From assembly GCF_016774335.1 (NCBI RefSeq), contig NZ_JAETWA010000026.1, forward strand, positions 1 to 64,000: 64,000 nucleotides of DNA, given 5' to 3'. The notes under the pieces were generated by a model that was not told the origin of the DNA, searched no databases, and saw only the letters and a list, made by a program, of their open reading frames with translations. The stretch comes from Luteimonas saliphila (GTDB lineage: Bacteria > Pseudomonadota > Gammaproteobacteria > Xanthomonadales > Xanthomonadaceae). How positions within the stretch are numbered: the first letter of the stretch is position 1; each line of letters opens with the position of its first letter. Positions 1-27,959 of this stretch are shown here, piece by piece. Position numbers and translations under genes: made by a program.

Positions 1-80
1 ACGTAGAACTTTGCGCCACACTTGGCCGTCGCGCCAGGACTTAAGAGCAGAAGAAAGAGAAGTGCTAGGGATGTTCGCAT
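1..80 (-). CDS. Cassette-encoded secreted protein, 5' part only
   Basis: Reading frame open from an ATG at 80-78 to the window edge, 26 complete codons. The start lies four bases after the core site that closes the attC at 85-144, the usual layout of a cassette gene. The translated N-terminus is a clear Sec signal peptide: Met-Arg-Thr-Ser, then a long Leu/Ala-rich core and a likely cleavage site after Ala-Thr-Ala, followed by Lys-Cys-Gly. The rest of the protein lies outside the window, so no family can be named. Confidence 0.55.
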   Translation of the reverse strand, partial: MRTSLALLFLLLLSPGATAKCGAKFY

Positions 81-84
81 TGGG

Positions 85-144
85 GGCTAACGCCTGAATT
101 AAGCCGCGCCGCGAAGCGGCGTCGGCTTGAATAAATTGTTAGGG
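85..144 (-). repeat. attC site 1 (60 bp)
   Basis: Begins GGCTAAC (85-91) and ends GTTAGGG (138-144) on the plus strand, with an imperfect inverted repeat whose loop centre is CGCGAAGCG. On the minus strand this is the attC of the cassette carrying the lipoprotein gene 139-579, whose TAA stop lies inside the outer box. Confidence 0.9.
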
Positions 145-579
145 TGCAGCCCGTGCTGTCTCCGCCACTGTCGTGGCACAGATTGAACCTGGCCATTGGC
201 CAAGATGTCCCTGGATGGTGTGCGTGAAGAATCCAGTGACCTCAACATGCTTGCCGGAGAAGCTGTCGTCCACGCCAAACAGCCAGATCCCCGTGCGAAA
301 GTTCTGAGCGTAGAGCTCTCGCTCCGGGTGTGAGTAGATGGCAGAGTGCTCAAAGTAGGAGTAGTAGTATCCGGAGACTTGAACATACGCGCCTTCATAC
401 TGATCAGGGGCATCCGCGAGGGTCTTGATGGACAGCGCCACTGGTGTGCTAAGGGAGGTAGGACATTTTGCATACGGAAAGCCTGATAGGTCCGGTCCAG
501 TCACAGTTTGCTCGTTGCTGCCGCTAGGTTGGCAAGCGGAGAGCGCGATGACGATTACAAGGGCGTGAAGTTCTCGCAT
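139..579 (-). CDS. Cassette-encoded putative lipoprotein of unknown function
   Basis: Protein of 146 residues. The start is the ATG at 579-577, only four bases beyond the core site of the neighbouring attC; the frame stays open further upstream but that part runs through attC 2 and is not cassette coding sequence. Residues 1-17 form a signal sequence ending Ala-Leu-Ser-Ala-Cys, a lipobox, so the mature protein should be lipid-anchored. The remainder is soluble with several Tyr/Ser-rich stretches (residues 75-95) and no motif I recognise. The TAA stop (141-139) is provided by the attC outer box, so gene and cassette end together. In the canonical cassette orientation, expression would depend on a promoter to the right or within the array. 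Function unknown. Confidence 0.75.
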   Translation of the reverse strand: MRELHALVIVIALSACQPSGSNEQTVTGPDLSGFPYAKCPTSLSTPVALSIKTLADAPDQYEGAYVQVSGYYYSYFEHSAIYSHPERELYAQNFRTGIWLFGVDDSFSGKHVEVTGFFTHTIQGHLGQWPGSICATTVAETARAAP

Positions 580-582
580 GCA

Positions 583-694
583 CCCTAACGCCTGAGTTAA
601 GCCGCGCCGCGTAGTGGAGCAAAGCACATGGCAAGCTGTACCTGCCATGTGCTTTGTGTAACGAAGCGGCGTCGGCTTGAACGAACTGTTAGGC
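583..694 (-). repeat. attC site 2, long form with nested hairpin (112 bp)
   Basis: Bounded by CCCTAAC (583-589) and GTTAGGC (688-694). Compared with the 60-bp attC sites here it has about 50 extra bases at the tip of the hairpin. The extra DNA is itself a perfect palindrome, with a 13-bp stem (621-633 pairing with 643-655) and a 9-base loop. The same long form recurs at 1662-1773. Confidence 0.9.
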
Positions 695-979
695 GGCACG
701 CTACGACGAAAATCGGGGTGCGGCAAGCTCTTGGCTTGGGATGTGGCCGGAGCCAACGGCGCCCGGGTGCGCCGGCCCGGAACCTGGCTCCGGACCTGGT
801 CGAAGCCGGCGAGGGACGGTCCGATTGCAACGCCTGCATCCAGCCATCCGAAGGCTGCCGCGACGAACTATCCCGGCGTGCTTGTGACTACCTGGCTGAA
901 GTCAAAGATGCTGGCAGCACGTTGACCGATCCGATTGCGACGACACTTAATGCCATGACATTGCAGCGTGCCGCCTAAC
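695..979 (-). mobile_element. Cassette body without a convincing gene, copy A
   Basis: Region between attC 2 and attC 3. No minus-strand frame starts near the core site at 979-973. A plus-strand frame (628-978, 116 codons, Arg-rich at the start) is open and ends at a TAA in the core site, but it begins inside attC 2. A near copy, gap-free and roughly 90 per cent identical by eye, lies at 1774-2058. Differences between the copies are spread over all three codon positions of the plus frame, with only a mild third-position excess towards its end, so coding is unproven. Confidence 0.6.
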
Positions 980-1032
980 GCCTGAGTTAAGCCGTGCCGC
1001 GAAGCGGCATCGGCTTGAACGAATTGTTAGGC
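973..1032 (-). repeat. attC site 3 (60 bp)
   Basis: Bounded by GCCTAAC (973-979) and GTTAGGC (1026-1032), with the same short hairpin as site 1 but with compensating base changes in the stem (GTGCCGC against GCGGCAT). It closes the cassette carrying the gene at 1027-1305. Confidence 0.9.
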
Positions 1033-1305
1033 CTCATTGAGAACGGCCTGCCGAAACTGCTGCACATACGCAGCGCCAAGCCTTGGTTCAAGCCGTTCCA
1101 CAGCCTCTAGTGCTTGCGCCACGTCGAATGCTCGCCCATCAAGTGTTGAGAGTGCTTGATTGTGAAGAGAATACGCAAGCCAAGCTGCATCACTTGCGGG
1201 GCTTTTCTCCTCGGGGTCGAGGTGGCCTGCAAGCAGAACCCGCAGATTAAACAAGGCAGCAGCCAGAAGTCGCTTCTCTAGGTCGACGTGCTGATCATCT
1301 GACAT
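1027..1305 (-). CDS. Cassette-encoded hypothetical protein
   Basis: Protein of 92 residues, acidic and helix-rich, with no signal peptide or membrane segment. The ATG (1305-1303) lies three bases after the core site of attC 4. The TAA stop at 1029-1027 is part of the attC 3 outer box, so the frame fills the whole cassette. The composition (many Leu, Ala and Glu, for example residues 63-80) suggests a small helical cytoplasmic protein. I recognise no family. The fit of start and stop to both cassette borders is the main reason to accept it as real. Confidence 0.72.
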   Translation of the reverse strand: MSDDQHVDLEKRLLAAALFNLRVLLAGHLDPEEKSPASDAAWLAYSLHNQALSTLDGRAFDVAQALEAVERLEPRLGAAYVQQFRQAVLNEA

Positions 1306-1308
1306 GAG

Positions 1309-1368
1309 GCCTAACGCCAGAATTAAGCCGACCCGCGAAGCGGGTTCGGCTTGAATGATTTGTTAGGC
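1309..1368 (-). repeat. attC site 4 (60 bp)
   Basis: Bounded by GCCTAAC (1309-1315) and GTTAGGC (1362-1368). The stem differs from the other sites (CCGACCCGC pairing with GCGGGTTCGG) while pairing is kept, as expected for selection on folded single-stranded attC rather than on sequence. Confidence 0.88.
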
Positions 1369-1661
1369 CGCAGCATGCGACGACAGACAGGGGCGTGCAA
1401 GGCCTTTGCTCTGGATGCGCCCTAGGCTAGGACCGTGAGCGCGCGGCGAGGAACTAGCCGCAGGGAATCTACCGAAGCCAGGGCGTGCCCCGCGATGCAG
1501 GCTGCCCACTGCCTGGCCGGCGGCCAAGCACCCGAAGACCAACAACCGGACGGCGGATCTGTCCCGCGCGGCGACAGACCGACCGGAGCATAAGGATGCT
1601 CCCCGATGCGATGCGCTGTCCAAGCAGGTGCAAGCGCTACTGCTTGCCTTTGCTCTTTGCG
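1369..1661 (-). mobile_element. Cassette body without a supported gene
   Basis: Between attC 4 and attC 5. A minus-strand frame runs through to a TAA in the attC 4 outer box, but it has no start codon inside the cassette and an Arg/Ser/Ala-rich composition typical of chance frames in GC-rich DNA. A 60-codon plus-strand frame (1485-1667) is no better. It may be a non-coding, promoter-bearing or RNA-encoding cassette; nothing decides. Confidence 0.5.
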
Positions 1662-1773
1662 GCCTAACGCCTGAGTTAAGCCGCGCCGCGTAGTGGAGCA
1701 AAGCACATGGCAAGCTGTACCTGCCATGTGCTTTGTGTAACGAAGCGGCGTCGGCTTGAACGAATTGTTAGGC
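1662..1773 (-). repeat. attC site 5, long form with nested hairpin (112 bp)
   Basis: Bounded by GCCTAAC (1662-1668) and GTTAGGC (1767-1773). It is almost identical to attC 2, including the extra 13-bp palindrome (1700-1712 pairing with 1722-1734). Confidence 0.9.
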
Positions 1774-2058
1774 GGAACGCTACGACGAAAATCGGGGTGC
1801 GGCAAGCTCTTGGCTTGGGATGGGGCCGGAGCCAATGGCGCCCGGGTGCGCCGGCCCGGGACCCGTCCCCGGACCTGGCCGAAGCCGGCGATGGACGGTC
1901 CGATTGCAACGCCTACATCCAGCCATCCGAAGGCTGCCGCGACGAACTGTCCCGGCGCGCTTACGAGTACTTGGCCGAAGCCAGAGATGCCGGCAGCACG
2001 TTAGCCGATCCGATTGCGACGACACTCAGTGACACGACATTGCAGCGTGCCGCCTAAC
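1774..2058 (-). mobile_element. Cassette body without a convincing gene, copy B
   Basis: Paralogue of the cassette at 695-979, aligned without gaps by eye. It is the integrase-proximal cassette by attC polarity. As in copy A there is an open plus-strand frame (1707-2057) ending in the core site, but no frame in the canonical direction with a sensible start. Confidence 0.6.
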
Positions 2059-2066
2059 ACCTGATT
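2052..2066 (-). repeat. Broken attC or attI-like half site at the array end
   Basis: GCCTAAC (2052-2058) is followed by ACCTGATTA, which resembles the first bases of a complete attC here, and then unrelated sequence. The second half of an attC is missing. It could be a truncated attC left by a deletion, or the simple half site of an attI whose integrase has been lost. Confidence 0.6.
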
Positions 2067-2349
2067 AGTCCCCAAACCCGAGGAATAACACAACTTTGCG
2101 CGCGCCCATTCACAACGTCAATCCTTTGTGGATCAGATGCTTGCGATCCGCTTGGCCGCCTCGACGCAGGTTTAGCATGCGGAAACGGGTTGATATCTGA
2201 TATTCCCCGCGAATCTGTCTGATAACCGGTCGACGCCGACCGCCGACCGCCGACCGCCGACCGCCGACCGCCGATCGCCGATCGCCGATCGCCGACCGCC
2301 GATCGCCGATCGCCGATCGCCGATCGCCGCTGGCCGGCGCCTGGCGTCC
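2067..2349. other. Boundary region between cassette array and S9 peptidase gene
   Basis: No gene seen. The stretch 2067-2234 is less GC-rich than the flanks (for example around 2180-2215), suggesting imported or non-coding DNA. It is followed by the heptamer array and then the peptidase stop codon at 2350. Confidence 0.5.
2235..2325. repeat. Tandem heptamer repeat, 13 units of GCCGAYC
   Basis: Thirteen uninterrupted 7-bp units. Units 1-5 and 9 are GCCGACC; units 6-8 and 10-13 are GCCGATC. It lies 25 bases after the S9 peptidase stop codon. Such heptad arrays change copy number by slippage; no function can be assigned. Confidence 0.95.
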
Positions 2350-4395
<2,046 letters not shown>

Positions 4396-4963
4396 GGGGC
4401 GGCTCCTGCAAAGGGTGGGCACAGGCTAGTGCAGATTGCGGGGCGACGCAGGTGCCGCGGCAGGCTCGCGAGGTGGAGGCGGGCTGCATACGCGGGCGCC
4501 CCACCGCAGCTGGCAGATGCCCGGCGGTCGCACCCGCGTGCGCAACTAGGGAGTGTGCGACGGCGCTCGCGGGCGGGCGGAGCTGCCCGGGTGCCCCTGC
4601 GGAGGCGGATGTCCGGATGACCGGCGTGTCCATGGCACCAGCCCGCGGCAGGGCCGAGGGGTGAAGACGCGCTTCCGGTTCCGCAAAGACCGCATCCGGT
4701 TCAACCGCGCGGCGTGAGCACCATCAGCACGGTGGCGCCCTCGCTGCCGGCCGGCGGCTGCACCAGGGCGGCCGCTACCACGCGGGTACCGTCGGTCCAG
4801 GCTTGGCGTGCATAGCCGGTGCCCTGCGCGGAGAGGCTGGAATGCGCCTGCCAGCCTGCGACACGCGCCTCCGGCGCGCCCCCATCTGGCTTCGGCACCT
4901 TTTCCCGCAAGCGGGAGAAGGAAATCGGAAGTCGCGTCCGCCCATGGCCCGAAGCGTGCGCCG
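4396..4963. other. 568-bp gap between S9 peptidase and dnaG
   Basis: In many relatives dnaG is followed by rpoD; here it is not. The gap holds a possible gene remnant (4701-4860) and a short palindrome (TCCCGCAAGCGGGA, about 4903-4916) of a kind often found in Xanthomonad intergenic repeats. Nothing else is seen. Confidence 0.5.
4701..4860 (-). pseudogene. Possible 3' remnant of an unidentified gene
   Basis: About 50 codons ending at a TGA (4703-4701) show coding-like third-position GC and a plausible C-terminus (…GYARQAWTDGTRVV…, then Val-Leu-Met-Val-Leu-Thr). No start codon or N-terminal part is present; to the right it runs into an intergenic palindrome and then the dnaG stop. It looks like the tail of a gene lost when the dnaG-rpoD neighbourhood was rearranged. 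Chance is possible. Confidence 0.3.
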
Positions 4964-6697
4964 CTACCGCCGCTGCAACAGCTCCCGCAGCTCCGCCTTG
5001 TCCGCCTCGTCCAGCCCGCCGCTGCGCTGCTTCTCCTGCAGTTCGTCCACACGCTGCTGCAGCGTCTGCCGGTCGAGCTGGGCGATGGCGTCGAGGAACT
5101 CGTCGCGCCAGGCCGCCTCGTCGCCGGGCATGGTCTGGCTGGCGAGCTTCTGCAGCGCGGCGCCTTCCTCGCGGTCGGCGAAGTGTTCGAGCAGGGCGCC
5201 GATGGTGATCGCCGGGCGCATGCTCACCAGCGCGATCAGTTCGGTCAGCAGTTCGATCCCCGGCTGGCGCAGCGCCACGAAGCGGTACGGAGGTTGCAGT
5301 TCGAGCGCCAGCGCGGGGTTCTGCAGCAGCAGCGCTATCGCGCTGCGCACCATGCTGCGCTTGGGCGGCGCCAAGGGACGGCTGCCGTGGCGGCGGATCG
5401 GCGCGGTCGGCTCCGGCGCGGCCTGGCGCGCGCCGACGCCGGTGAGTTCGGTCAGCCGCTGCTGCATCAGGTCGCCAAAGGCGCCATCGGGGATCTGCGC
5501 CAGCAGCGGCTTCGCGCGCTCGGCCAGACGCGCCTTGCCGTCGAGCGTGGACAGCGCGATGCCGTCGGACAGCGTGTCGAACAGGAACCGCGACAGCGGC
5601 GTGGCCTCGTGCAGGCGCGCATTGAAGCCTGCCGCGCCTTCCTTGCGGACGATGCTGTCGGGATCCTCGCCCTCGGGCAGGAACAGGAAGAACCCCTGGC
5701 GCCCGTCGCGCATGCGCGGCAGCACCGATTCCAGCGCCTTCCACGCCGCTTTGCGGCCGGCGCGATCGCCGTCGAAACAGAAGTACACGTCGGGCGCGTT
5801 GCGGAAGAGCAGCTCCGCATGGTCGGGCGTGGTGGCGGTGCCGAGCGTGGCCACGGCCACGCTCACGCCGTGCTCGAACAGCGCGATCACGTCCATGTAG
5901 CCCTCGACCACCACCAGGCGCTCGATCTTCGCGTTCGCCTGTCGCACCTGCCACAGCCCGTACAACTCGCGGCCCTTGTGGAACAGCGGCGTCTCGGGCG
6001 AGTTGAGGTACTTCGGGCCGGCGTCGCGGCCATCGGCGGGTGCGTCCAGCACGCGTCCGCCGAACGCGATCACGCGGCCGCGGCGGTCGTGGATCGGGAA
6101 CATCACCCGGTCGCGGAACTTGTCGTAGACGTGGCCGCGGTCGTTCTTGGAGAACAGGCCGGCGCGTTCGAGCAGGCCCATGCGCCGGGCGTCGGTGCCG
6201 AGCGCGTCCTTCAGCGCGGAGAAGCCGTCGGGCGCGTAGCCGACCGCGAACTGCGCGCGCACCGCCACGCCGACGCCGCGCCGGTCGAGGTAGGCGCGGG
6301 CCCTGTCGCTGGCGGCGAGCTGGCGCTGGAAGAACGCGGCGGCCGCGTCGAGCGCCTTGAACAGATCCTGCGTGTCCGGGTTGGCGTTGTGCTGCTGGGT
6401 GTCGCGCGGCACGTCCATGCCGGCGCGCCGGGCGAGCTCGTCGACCGCGTCGAGGAACTCGAGCCGATCGTAGTTCATCAGGAACGAGATCGCGGTGCCG
6501 TGCGCGCCGCAGCCGAAGCAGTGGTAGAACTGCTTGGTCGGCGAGACGGTGAACGACGGCGAGCGCTCGTCGTGGAACGGGCAGCGCGCCGAGTACTCCT
6601 TGCCCTGACGCTTGAGCGGCACGCGCGCGTGGATCAGTTCGACGATGTCGGTGCGGGCAAGGAGCTCGTCGATGAAGGCGTCGGGGATGCGGGCCAT
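4964..6697 (-). CDS. dnaG: DNA primase DnaG
   Basis: Protein of 577 residues that makes RNA primers at the replication fork. The zinc-binding domain has Cys39-His42-Cys60-Cys63 (CPFH and CFGC). The catalytic TOPRIM core has Glu265 in EGYMD and a DGDRAG metal site. A C-terminal helical region for helicase (DnaB) contact follows. The start at 6697 is chosen over an in-frame ATG 36 bases upstream because MARIPDAFIDELL matches the family N-terminus. The length is normal. It is separated from rpsU and yqeY by about 5 kb of unrelated genes and has no rpoD downstream, so the classical rpsU-dnaG-rpoD operon is broken here. Confidence 0.98.
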   Translation of the reverse strand: MARIPDAFIDELLARTDIVELIHARVPLKRQGKEYSARCPFHDERSPSFTVSPTKQFYHCFGCGAHGTAISFLMNYDRLEFLDAVDELARRAGMDVPRDTQQHNANPDTQDLFKALDAAAAFFQRQLAASDRARAYLDRRGVGVAVRAQFAVGYAPDGFSALKDALGTDARRMGLLERAGLFSKNDRGHVYDKFRDRVMFPIHDRRGRVIAFGGRVLDAPADGRDAGPKYLNSPETPLFHKGRELYGLWQVRQANAKIERLVVVEGYMDVIALFEHGVSVAVATLGTATTPDHAELLFRNAPDVYFCFDGDRAGRKAAWKALESVLPRMRDGRQGFFLFLPEGEDPDSIVRKEGAAGFNARLHEATPLSRFLFDTLSDGIALSTLDGKARLAERAKPLLAQIPDGAFGDLMQQRLTELTGVGARQAAPEPTAPIRRHGSRPLAPPKRSMVRSAIALLLQNPALALELQPPYRFVALRQPGIELLTELIALVSMRPAITIGALLEHFADREEGAALQKLASQTMPGDEAAWRDEFLDAIAQLDRQTLQQRVDELQEKQRSGGLDEADKAELRELLQRR

Positions 6698-7110
6698 GTC
6701 AGTGGCCCCGGCCGCGCAGGCGCGCGACGCCACGACCGGGGCGCCCCGTTTTCGCGACGGCGCACGCGCAGTCGCAGTCGCACGGAACGGCGTTTCGGGC
6801 GGGAATGGTGTCGGGAAGCGGGCTCACCGCACCATGATCGCATCCGCGCGCGGACCTCGGGCATGCCTCGGGTGAAGCGGCGGCCCGCTGGGCCCCGGCT
6901 CGCCCTCGGAGCCAGGTCGGCGCGCTCGATGGCCGTCCAGTCCAGCCGGCAGGCGGGCATTCGGCGATCGCGACCGCCCCACCGGACCGACCCCGGAGAC
7001 GGTCCGATCCCCCGGACTGCGCTCGCCGGTCGCCGCGCCAGCCGCGGCGGCCCCACCGCCGCATCGCAGCGACGTGCGGCGCCCTCGCAACGCGGGGTTG
7101 CGCCGTGGGT
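6698..7110. other. 413-bp gap upstream of dnaG
   Basis: No supported gene or repeat seen. It must contain the dnaG promoter, but no clear -10/-35 pair stands out in this GC-rich stretch. Confidence 0.4.
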
Positions 7111-26933: not shown

Positions 26934-27959
26934 TCACCCGTTATCGTTCTGGGATTGGTCGAGGTACCAACCGGCGGCGCCGATCACGCCCAGTTGCCCG
27001 TGATCGACCAGGGTCACGGGGATGCGGAGCAACGCCTCGCGCATCGGTCCCTTGTCGAGGAACCGCTGCACGAAGCTGCTGTGTGCGAGGAAATCGCGGA
27101 TCTGCGGCAGGATCCCGCCGGCGAGATAGACCCCGCCGTGCGCGCCGTAGAGCAGCGCCATGTCGCCGACGGCGCTGCCGAGCAGGCCGCAGAACAGCTC
27201 GAGGGCGTCGCGCGCGAGCGGATCGTCGCCGCTGCGGGCGGCGGCGGTGATCGCGGCGGGCGTGGCGTGAGCGGGTTGGATGCCGCGCACCCGCGCCAGC
27301 GCCGCGTGCAGCCGGACCAGGCCGGGGCCCGATAGCGCGTGTTCGATCGGAACGTGGCGCCGTTCGCGCAGGAACTCGCGCAGGATCTCGATTTCCGCTT
27401 CGGTGGAAACGGTCAGCGCCGCCTGCCCGGCTTCGGTGGCGAGCACGACGGCGTGCCCGCGGTCCGGAATCCGCACCGCGGCGCCGAGCCCGGTGCCAGG
27501 CCCGACCACCAGCACCGGTCCCGGCGGTGCACGCTCGGGGCCGGACAGGTGCAGCAGCGATTGCGCGCCCGCCGCTTCCACGGCGTGGGCGACCGCCTCG
27601 AAATCGTTGACCAGGCGCAGATCCTCGAAGCGCAGCTGCGTGCGGATGCGCTGCGGCACGACCGGCCACGGCAGGTTCACCGACAGCAGCGATCCGTCCT
27701 CCAGCGGGTGTCCGGCGCAGGCGATCACGCCGTGGCGGACCGGGGCGGAGGCCGGCAGCTCGGCGAGGTAGGCCTCGAGGATGGCCGCCAGTGCGGGGAA
27801 ATCCGCGCAGGCGTACTTGCGATAGTGCCCGACCCGGATCGGGCCGTCGTCGTGCACCAGACCGACGCGCACGTGGGTGCCGCCGACATCGGCCGCGATG
27901 AACGGCGTGCGGGCCGGCTGGCGGCCGGCGGCGGGCAGGGGACGGGTCGTTGCTCCCAC
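26934..27959 (-). CDS. Glucokinase-family sugar kinase (GlcNAc/glucose kinase)
   Basis: Protein of about 341 residues. ATP-binding motif DVGGT at 24-28, sugar-binding VNDFEAVAHAV, and VVGPGTGLG place it in the bacterial glucokinase (Glk) family; in this cluster it likely phosphorylates GlcNAc. The start is set at the GTG 27959 because AGGAG lies five bases upstream. An in-frame ATG at 28049 would place the operator palindrome at 28022-28035 inside the gene and add a non-conserved, Cys/Arg-rich tail. First gene of the minus-strand arm, followed by the receptor. Probably controlled by the divergent LacI protein. Confidence 0.87.
   Translation of the reverse strand: MGATTRPLPAAGRQPARTPFIAADVGGTHVRVGLVHDDGPIRVGHYRKYACADFPALAAILEAYLAELPASAPVRHGVIACAGHPLEDGSLLSVNLPWPVVPQRIRTQLRFEDLRLVNDFEAVAHAVEAAGAQSLLHLSGPERAPPGPVLVVGPGTGLGAAVRIPDRGHAVVLATEAGQAALTVSTEAEIEILREFLRERRHVPIEHALSGPGLVRLHAALARVRGIQPAHATPAAITAAARSGDDPLARDALELFCGLLGSAVGDMALLYGAHGGVYLAGGILPQIRDFLAHSSFVQRFLDKGPMREALLRIPVTLVDHGQLGVIGAAGWYLDQSQNDNG

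Follow-up and report, generated by a model that had tools for sequence, protein, structure and literature searches.

An attC cluster that lacks an integrase tends to be dismissed as integron debris, and the question raised by this locus of Luteimonas saliphila is whether such a cluster can still take part in cassette exchange. The window analysed here, the 64,000 nucleotides of contig C24 from base 1 in a 4.65-Mb draft genome of 48 contigs (G000), opens with a cassette array that has no integrase gene (intI) at its side and adjoins a gene of the S9 prolyl oligopeptidase family. We put the probability at about 0.68 that the window holds the proximal end of a longer array (array B) from which intI is missing, and that its cassettes are still exchanged in trans by the single intact integrase of the genome, encoded on contig C44. 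The array at the S9 gene would then be best read as a former integrase home that was kept as a port and is served in trans, and what looks like an ordinary cluster of attC sites lacking integrase (CALIN) is most likely one port of an integron with several.

Positions 1-2051 of the window formed the proximal end of a minus-strand cassette array. The sequence-only reading had proposed five intact attC sites in one polarity, a broken sixth, and an integrase end at about 2058. A covariance model built from 31 attC sites of this genome, three of them in the window, recovered the five. Each scored highest on the minus strand, at 70.4-90.9 bits (E 2e-16 to 6e-22), and no plus-strand copy exceeded 28.1 bits. 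Sites of 60 bp were located at 85-144 (80.5 bits, E 4e-19), 973-1032 (90.9 bits) and 1309-1368, the last found with the same model; sites of 112 bp were located at 583-694 (70.4 bits) and 1662-1773 (76.4 bits). In all of them the R and L boxes paired as a hairpin, with unpaired bases setting the polarity. The 52 extra bp of the longer sites were a palindrome in the terminal loop, and each of these sites folded into one long hairpin. None of 500 shuffles reached the observed covariation score, and none the count of doubly changed cells; two further measures, which support the pairing less, pairs changed on both sides and pair types, were reached by 36 and 58 of 500, respectively. The polarity put the integrase side at approximately 2052, close to where it had been expected, and the array on C44, which has the same orientation, carries intI on that side.

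No intI match was found in the first 9 kb of the window in a search with the C44 integrase, and the genes that followed were those named in the sequence-only reading: a gene with a PF00326 match, the proximal flank of the array (2350-4422, minus strand), and then dnaG for DNA primase (4964-6733, minus strand). This pairing was common in the genus: of 17 orthologous S9 loci, 11 showed a dnaG match in the flanking 1.5 kb. An assembly artefact, with intI lying past the contig end, was considered and rejected, because the contig end at base 1 of the window is on the distal side of the array; the integrase side lies inside the contig against the S9 gene and dnaG, and the same arrangement was seen in the relative G049 on a 3.3-Mb contig. 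The window array is therefore a CALIN, with five attC sites, no neighbouring integrase and no contig break to account for it; a complete integron, in which intI adjoins attI, was not present at this place.

The supposed sixth attC site had no attC match at 2052-2122 up to E = 1 with the covariance model. A broken attC was rejected there, since the stretch resembled an attI site instead, and five of the six sites first proposed stood. In pairwise alignments, made without a shuffle control, 2052-2122 (drawn on the cassette strand, minus) aligned with the DNA that separates intI from the first cassette in related integrons. Nineteen columns were invariant across 16 aligned attI sites, 11 of which adjoin intI. 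A profile of those 11 intI-adjacent sites, run over the available stretches of this genome and three loci of relatives, matched intI-less sites on C16 (E 3e-15) and in G041 (5e-13), G049 (3e-8), the window (6e-4) and G019 (0.012), together with the C44 site, its own member (5e-17), and partial sites on C28 (3e-7) and at C17:27731 (5e-4). The window site reached 46.5 bits and E 6e-13 with a model that itself includes it. Likeness to DNA upstream of intI continued for approximately 180 bp, to about 2238 in the intI start region, and was shared by G049 at the S9 site; 2123-2240 (plus strand) was accordingly annotated as a remnant of the intI upstream region that ends at about the intI start codon. 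Between the window and its G049 orthologue beside the S9 gene, identity was 83% over the attI site and 71% over the next 160 bp. The window site is a weak match when taken alone and is carried by this orthologue at the same S9 place; at the proximal end of the array it is, by likeness, a site of attI type. The likeness stopped at the intI start codon in the window, on C16 and in G049. A precise mobile attI element with its right border at that codon was considered and is not claimed, since other sites differ and the site of G046 at comEC is an in-place deletion.

The conserved boundary bears on a further explanation, in which the C44 integrase inserted cassettes at a chance attG site beside the S9 gene. 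Insertion at attG sites has been described (Loot 2024, as cited in the available text of PMC12444791). Such an array would start at a boundary without attI homology. Here the proximal boundary was a conserved attI-type sequence of approximately 70 bp with DNA from upstream of intI after it, and this locus was occupied in several species, which makes this origin very improbable.

The attI block also contained a promoter pattern. TTGAC read toward the cassettes was present in 40 of 41 attI sites, and a hexamer 17 nt further on with A at position 2 and T at position 6 was present in 36 of 40, counts that are not independent because many of the sites were picked by a model ending in that block. 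The second hexamer of these predicted promoters matched just 3-4 of the 6 consensus bases. In the window, the predicted cassette promoter (TTGACG, 17 nt, CAAAGT) lies at 2093-2121 on the minus strand. The hexamers are the pattern expected of a cassette promoter, predicted in intI-bearing and intI-less arrays alike. Should the reading of the window as a served port hold, 2052-2122 would still act as attI and the promoter in it would still drive the cassettes.

The genome-wide search gave a single match above the TIGR02249 cut-off, G000:C44:2310-3248 (481 bits, no internal stop), next to genes for an Lrp/AsnC-type regulator and an aromatic amino acid hydroxylase; this one intact intI does not adjoin the window array. 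Together with cassettes reaching back to C17:64685 it forms a complete integron, array A, in which C17 and the left end of C44 overlap by 93 bp. The right end of C44 overlaps the window start: its final 95 bp are the same as window 1-95, and so are the final 95 bp of contig C15. We infer that array B spans the right end of C44 and the window, with a direct join between the two contigs; its attI would then lie approximately 340 kb from the C44 intI. In G049 the distance from the S9 attI to intI was 300 kb, and the sequence distal to the S9 array there was collinear with C44:306500-325586, at 90-93% identity. A third array, on C16, starts with three attC sites. Its attI-type site occupies 1027-1098 and scored 56.9 bits; beyond it, DNA from upstream of intI breaks off near the position of the start codon, intI itself is absent, and tRNA-Leu(CAA) comes next. 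At least three attI-headed arrays are thus present in this genome. Partial attI matches at C28:1352-1386 (27.7 bits, near an attC site at 805-864) and C17:27731-27777 (20.3 bits, near an attC site at 27104-27163), each beside a single attC site, are possibly eroded ports. The integrase gene itself (L020 2277-3248) was 72% identical to that of the sister G049 (L051) although the adjoining part of lrp was 97% identical, so intI seems to have been replaced in place between the two.

Cassettes were shared between these arrays. Copies of cassette V in array A, C16 and C15 showed no difference over 379 bp, and the copies of cassette W in array B and C15 none over 500 bp. Cassette Y1 (window 1309-1661) was 96.3% identical between array B and the intI-bearing array A on C17, and 92.9-93.9% identical to a copy in G049. 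Identity of V, W and Y1 ended at the cassette edge on one side; on the other side, V and Y1 had an X-type cassette as neighbour in each of the two arrays compared, and W reached the end of a contig. Cassettes have thus moved from array to array, probably after the species diverged, while the lack of intI is common to the species. Service in trans is the simplest reading of the sharing, with homologous recombination as the main alternative. By that alternative, the cassettes would have been moved not by IntI but by homologous recombination or gene conversion between repeats, X among them: X-type cassettes recur across arrays and, where they flank V and Y1, offer possible crossover points. On the far side of V, W and Y1, however, identity ended at the cassette edge against unrelated cassettes, and neighbouring X copies were clearly less alike than the moved units (96-100%), so the movement of single cassettes fits better. 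We regard recombination through repeats as improbable and prefer exchange in trans by the C44 IntI, which would act on the window array and at least one other of its kind. The earlier suggestion that an unpowered array could be mobilised in trans stands in so far as an integrase elsewhere in the genome and attC sites of the same family were both found; activity in trans is likely, and the array still carries a docking site of its own.

The comparison with related species separated the docking sites from their cassettes. Five loci with an intI-less attI site were common to two to five species: the tRNA-Leu(CAA) site to five (G000, G049, G025, G017, G027), the S9 site to three (G000, G049, G019), and three further loci to two species each. 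The S9 gene of G041 also borders an attI-type site and an array, with a flank too short for comparison. The flanks beyond attI were 82.7-92.1% identical in 16 of 16 orthologous pairs. On the cassette side, compared over 0.8-3.2 kb per site and 13.5 kb for array B of G000, three of the 16 pairs shared a stretch of at least 200 bp (69.5-82.6%), all of one recurrent cassette family. Between the S9 arrays of G000 and G049 nothing of at least 220 bp was shared, and one stretch at the distal edge aligned at 75.7%.

This comparison is relevant to the view that the array is part of an ordinary degraded integron, in which intI was lost, no cassettes have been exchanged since, and old common descent accounts for the likeness to other arrays. 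CALINs are generally read as degraded integrons in the available text of PMC9024848, and the distal attC sites of array B scored low (28.8-64.9 bits at C44:332216-338107, with one exception at 79.4), as did part of the G049 S9 array (79.8, 72.1, 33.4 and 29.2 bits). But the 60-bp sites nearer the docking site scored 79-93 bits in array B versus 70-94 in array A, the inter-array cassettes were 96-100% identical and so closer than the collinear DNA of G000 and G049, and orthologous intI-less arrays had few cassettes in common. A static array therefore appears unlikely, if less so than recombination through repeats, and the preferred reading remains a port whose cassettes are still exchanged by the C44 integrase.

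How a docking site may come to stand without its integrase was indicated by G046. Thirty intI loci were examined (of 43 intI rows), and they occupied five places: 17 at lrp/phhA, 8 at comEC, and 2, 2 and 1 elsewhere. At comEC, G046 has an intI-less attI with two attC sites beside it. Its DNA matched that of the relative G002 from attI to about codon 12 of intI and resumed approximately 13 codons before the end of intI, so that about 894 bp of the gene are missing relative to G002 with both ends kept. At least one satellite site, judged by this alignment, is a former integrase home from which intI was deleted in place. A second intI of G046 lies in two overlapping pieces. None of the 30 examined intI loci was at the S9 or tRNA-Leu sites; intI loss at these two sites is inferred, and the S9 place would once have carried an intI that was removed by a deletion like the one at comEC.

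Sites of this kind were widespread in the genus. An attI model (R2) of 16 sites, a sequence-only model, was run over 52 genomes at E up to 1e-3 and returned 81 attI-like sites in 33 of them. Of the 81, 26 had intI within 500 bp downstream; of the other 55, 48 were in genomes with an intI match elsewhere. Among the best 48 of the 81 rows (E up to 7e-7), 32 were without intI and 16 with it. An intI match (E up to 1e-40, some genes partial or broken) was present in 41 of the 52 genomes, and 24 of these 41 held at least one intI-less attI site. When 39 intI-less sites were read in context, 33 had a correctly oriented attC site no more than 700 bp away on the array side (28 of 34 sites outside the R2 model, 5 of 5 model members). 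The six exceptions were G010_C30, where none was found; G026_C88, G023_C88 and G026:C78:18531, with the nearest attC at 1.8, 1.6 and 1.0 kb, respectively; and G034:C65 and G038:C129, both at a contig start. Protein searches revealed intI remnants in G003_C33, G023_C88, G028 and, weakly, G016, all from genomes without an intI match. Across the family (198 genomes from 54 genera), a search with R2 at E up to 1e-6 gave 69 sites outside the genus, of which, by position only, 34 had intI within 500 bp and 35 did not; 24 of these 35 were in genomes of 12 genera with intI elsewhere. Whether the attI type follows the resident integrase was also considered, and no rule emerged: five of 18 satellites (C16, at 96% over 52 nt, G017_C13, G041, G010_C30 and G026_C70) ranked the intI site of their own genome first among 12, and 13 did not. 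Six attI-type sites were found in succession on G026:C78:1-33000, approximately 3-11 kb apart, and five of the six had attC within 700 bp on the array side.

Several results weigh against the reading of the window as a served port. The window attI ranked toward the weak end of the matches (61% identity with the attI of C44 across approximately 70 bp), the pairwise alignments behind it carry no shuffle control, the intI site of its own genome ranked third of 12 in likeness to it, and by the profile of intI-adjacent sites it did no better than the partial site at C17:27731. The predicted -10 hexamer in the window matches 3 of 6 consensus bases, and a strict consensus scan found no promoter in the window. 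The X-type neighbours of V and Y1 and the contig end at W leave room for homologous recombination. A cassette-bearing contig, C6, which overlaps C16 and C15, and the tRNA-Leu array of G049 had 606 bp in common at 80.4%; old cassettes may thus be more numerous in that array than the count of shared stretches shows. R2 paired just 26 sites with 43 intI rows and so misses many attI sites, the context reading covered 39 of the 55 intI-less rows, and some of the 41 genomes counted as having intI carry partial or broken genes (G005, G046). Finally, the genome is a draft, and contig C15, which joins both V and W, cannot be placed. C15 starts with cassette V and ends with cassette W, each of which is also in other arrays, and no single path was found that uses every array contig once. 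The conflict could arise from short contigs lacking in the assembly or from a culture with mixed array states.

The wider proposal is that the integron of Luteimonas and other Lysobacteraceae is of multi-port type: one integrase would serve several attI-headed arrays fixed at separate loci of the chromosome, every one of them a former home of an integrase; docking sites would have outlived intI by selection, and cassettes would circulate from port to port and be transcribed from several promoters simultaneously. We hold this tentatively, at slightly less than even confidence. If the attI sites work, an integron would be a set of ports fed by one enzyme and not one locus, which would account for the constant chromosomal position of such clusters from species to species. 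Several cassettes at once would hold the first position beside a promoter, and the modelling of cassette dynamics would change, with a predicted site for each port. Xanthomonas CALINs, from a related genus, are the nearest described case in the available text of PMC12444791: attC clusters without adjacent intI at seven distinct loci, apart from the intI locus and relatively conserved in position, which are called mobilisable in trans. They differ in that the same text describes no attI at them, whereas the Luteimonas array retains an attI-type site together with DNA from upstream of intI. According to the available text of PMC9024848, attI outside class 1 integrons escapes detection by IntegronFinder. 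A sedentary chromosomal integron, of which array A is one, resembles the window array in attC family, attI position and layout and differs from it in having intI. Among the literature matches listed (titles and abstract openings, with most subscription journals outside coverage), no paper on integrase-less attI-headed arrays served by one integrase was found.

The window attC sites were also alike in sequence to the 60-bp "Xanthomonadales-like" attC of class 1 cassettes such as aadA1, and aadA1a is assigned to Xanthomonadales (both in the available text of PMC8352920). At least 5000 plasmid records matched the window array; among the 20 matches listed, the match covered 19-22% of the query and fell at cassettes annotated as resistance genes. 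Unlike class 1 resistance cassettes, the two cassette open reading frames (ORFs) of the window had no Pfam match. They encode 146 aa (139-579, minus strand; lipoprotein-like N-terminus by eye) and 92 aa (1027-1305, minus strand). Rfam at gathering scores found nothing in the window. At positions 1-84 (minus strand) lies the tail of W, the next cassette on the distal side, which the contig end truncates. Short GCCGACC/GCCGATC repeats, with limits set by eye at 2230-2331, lie between the intI-upstream remnant and the S9 gene and are missing from G049. The distal end of the C6 array is interrupted by an IS3-type transposase sequence, read by eye (L023 8172-8910), and a C6 contig end overlaps C28 and C29 by 73 bp.

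Cassette X, which occupies window 583-972 and 1662-2051, has no clear ORF and carries the 112-bp hairpin attC. Nine X-type copies were found on four contigs (two in the window, two at the left of C44, two on C17 and three on C6), and a tenth 112-bp X-like site, poorly scoring, was at L021 7309-7420. Recurrent "empty" cassettes are mentioned for Xanthomonas in the available text of PMC12444791. X came first among the cassettes at the docking site of C44 and at that of the window, and a 27-base exact piece of its palindrome matched 43 stretches in named genomes, many of them Luteimonas.

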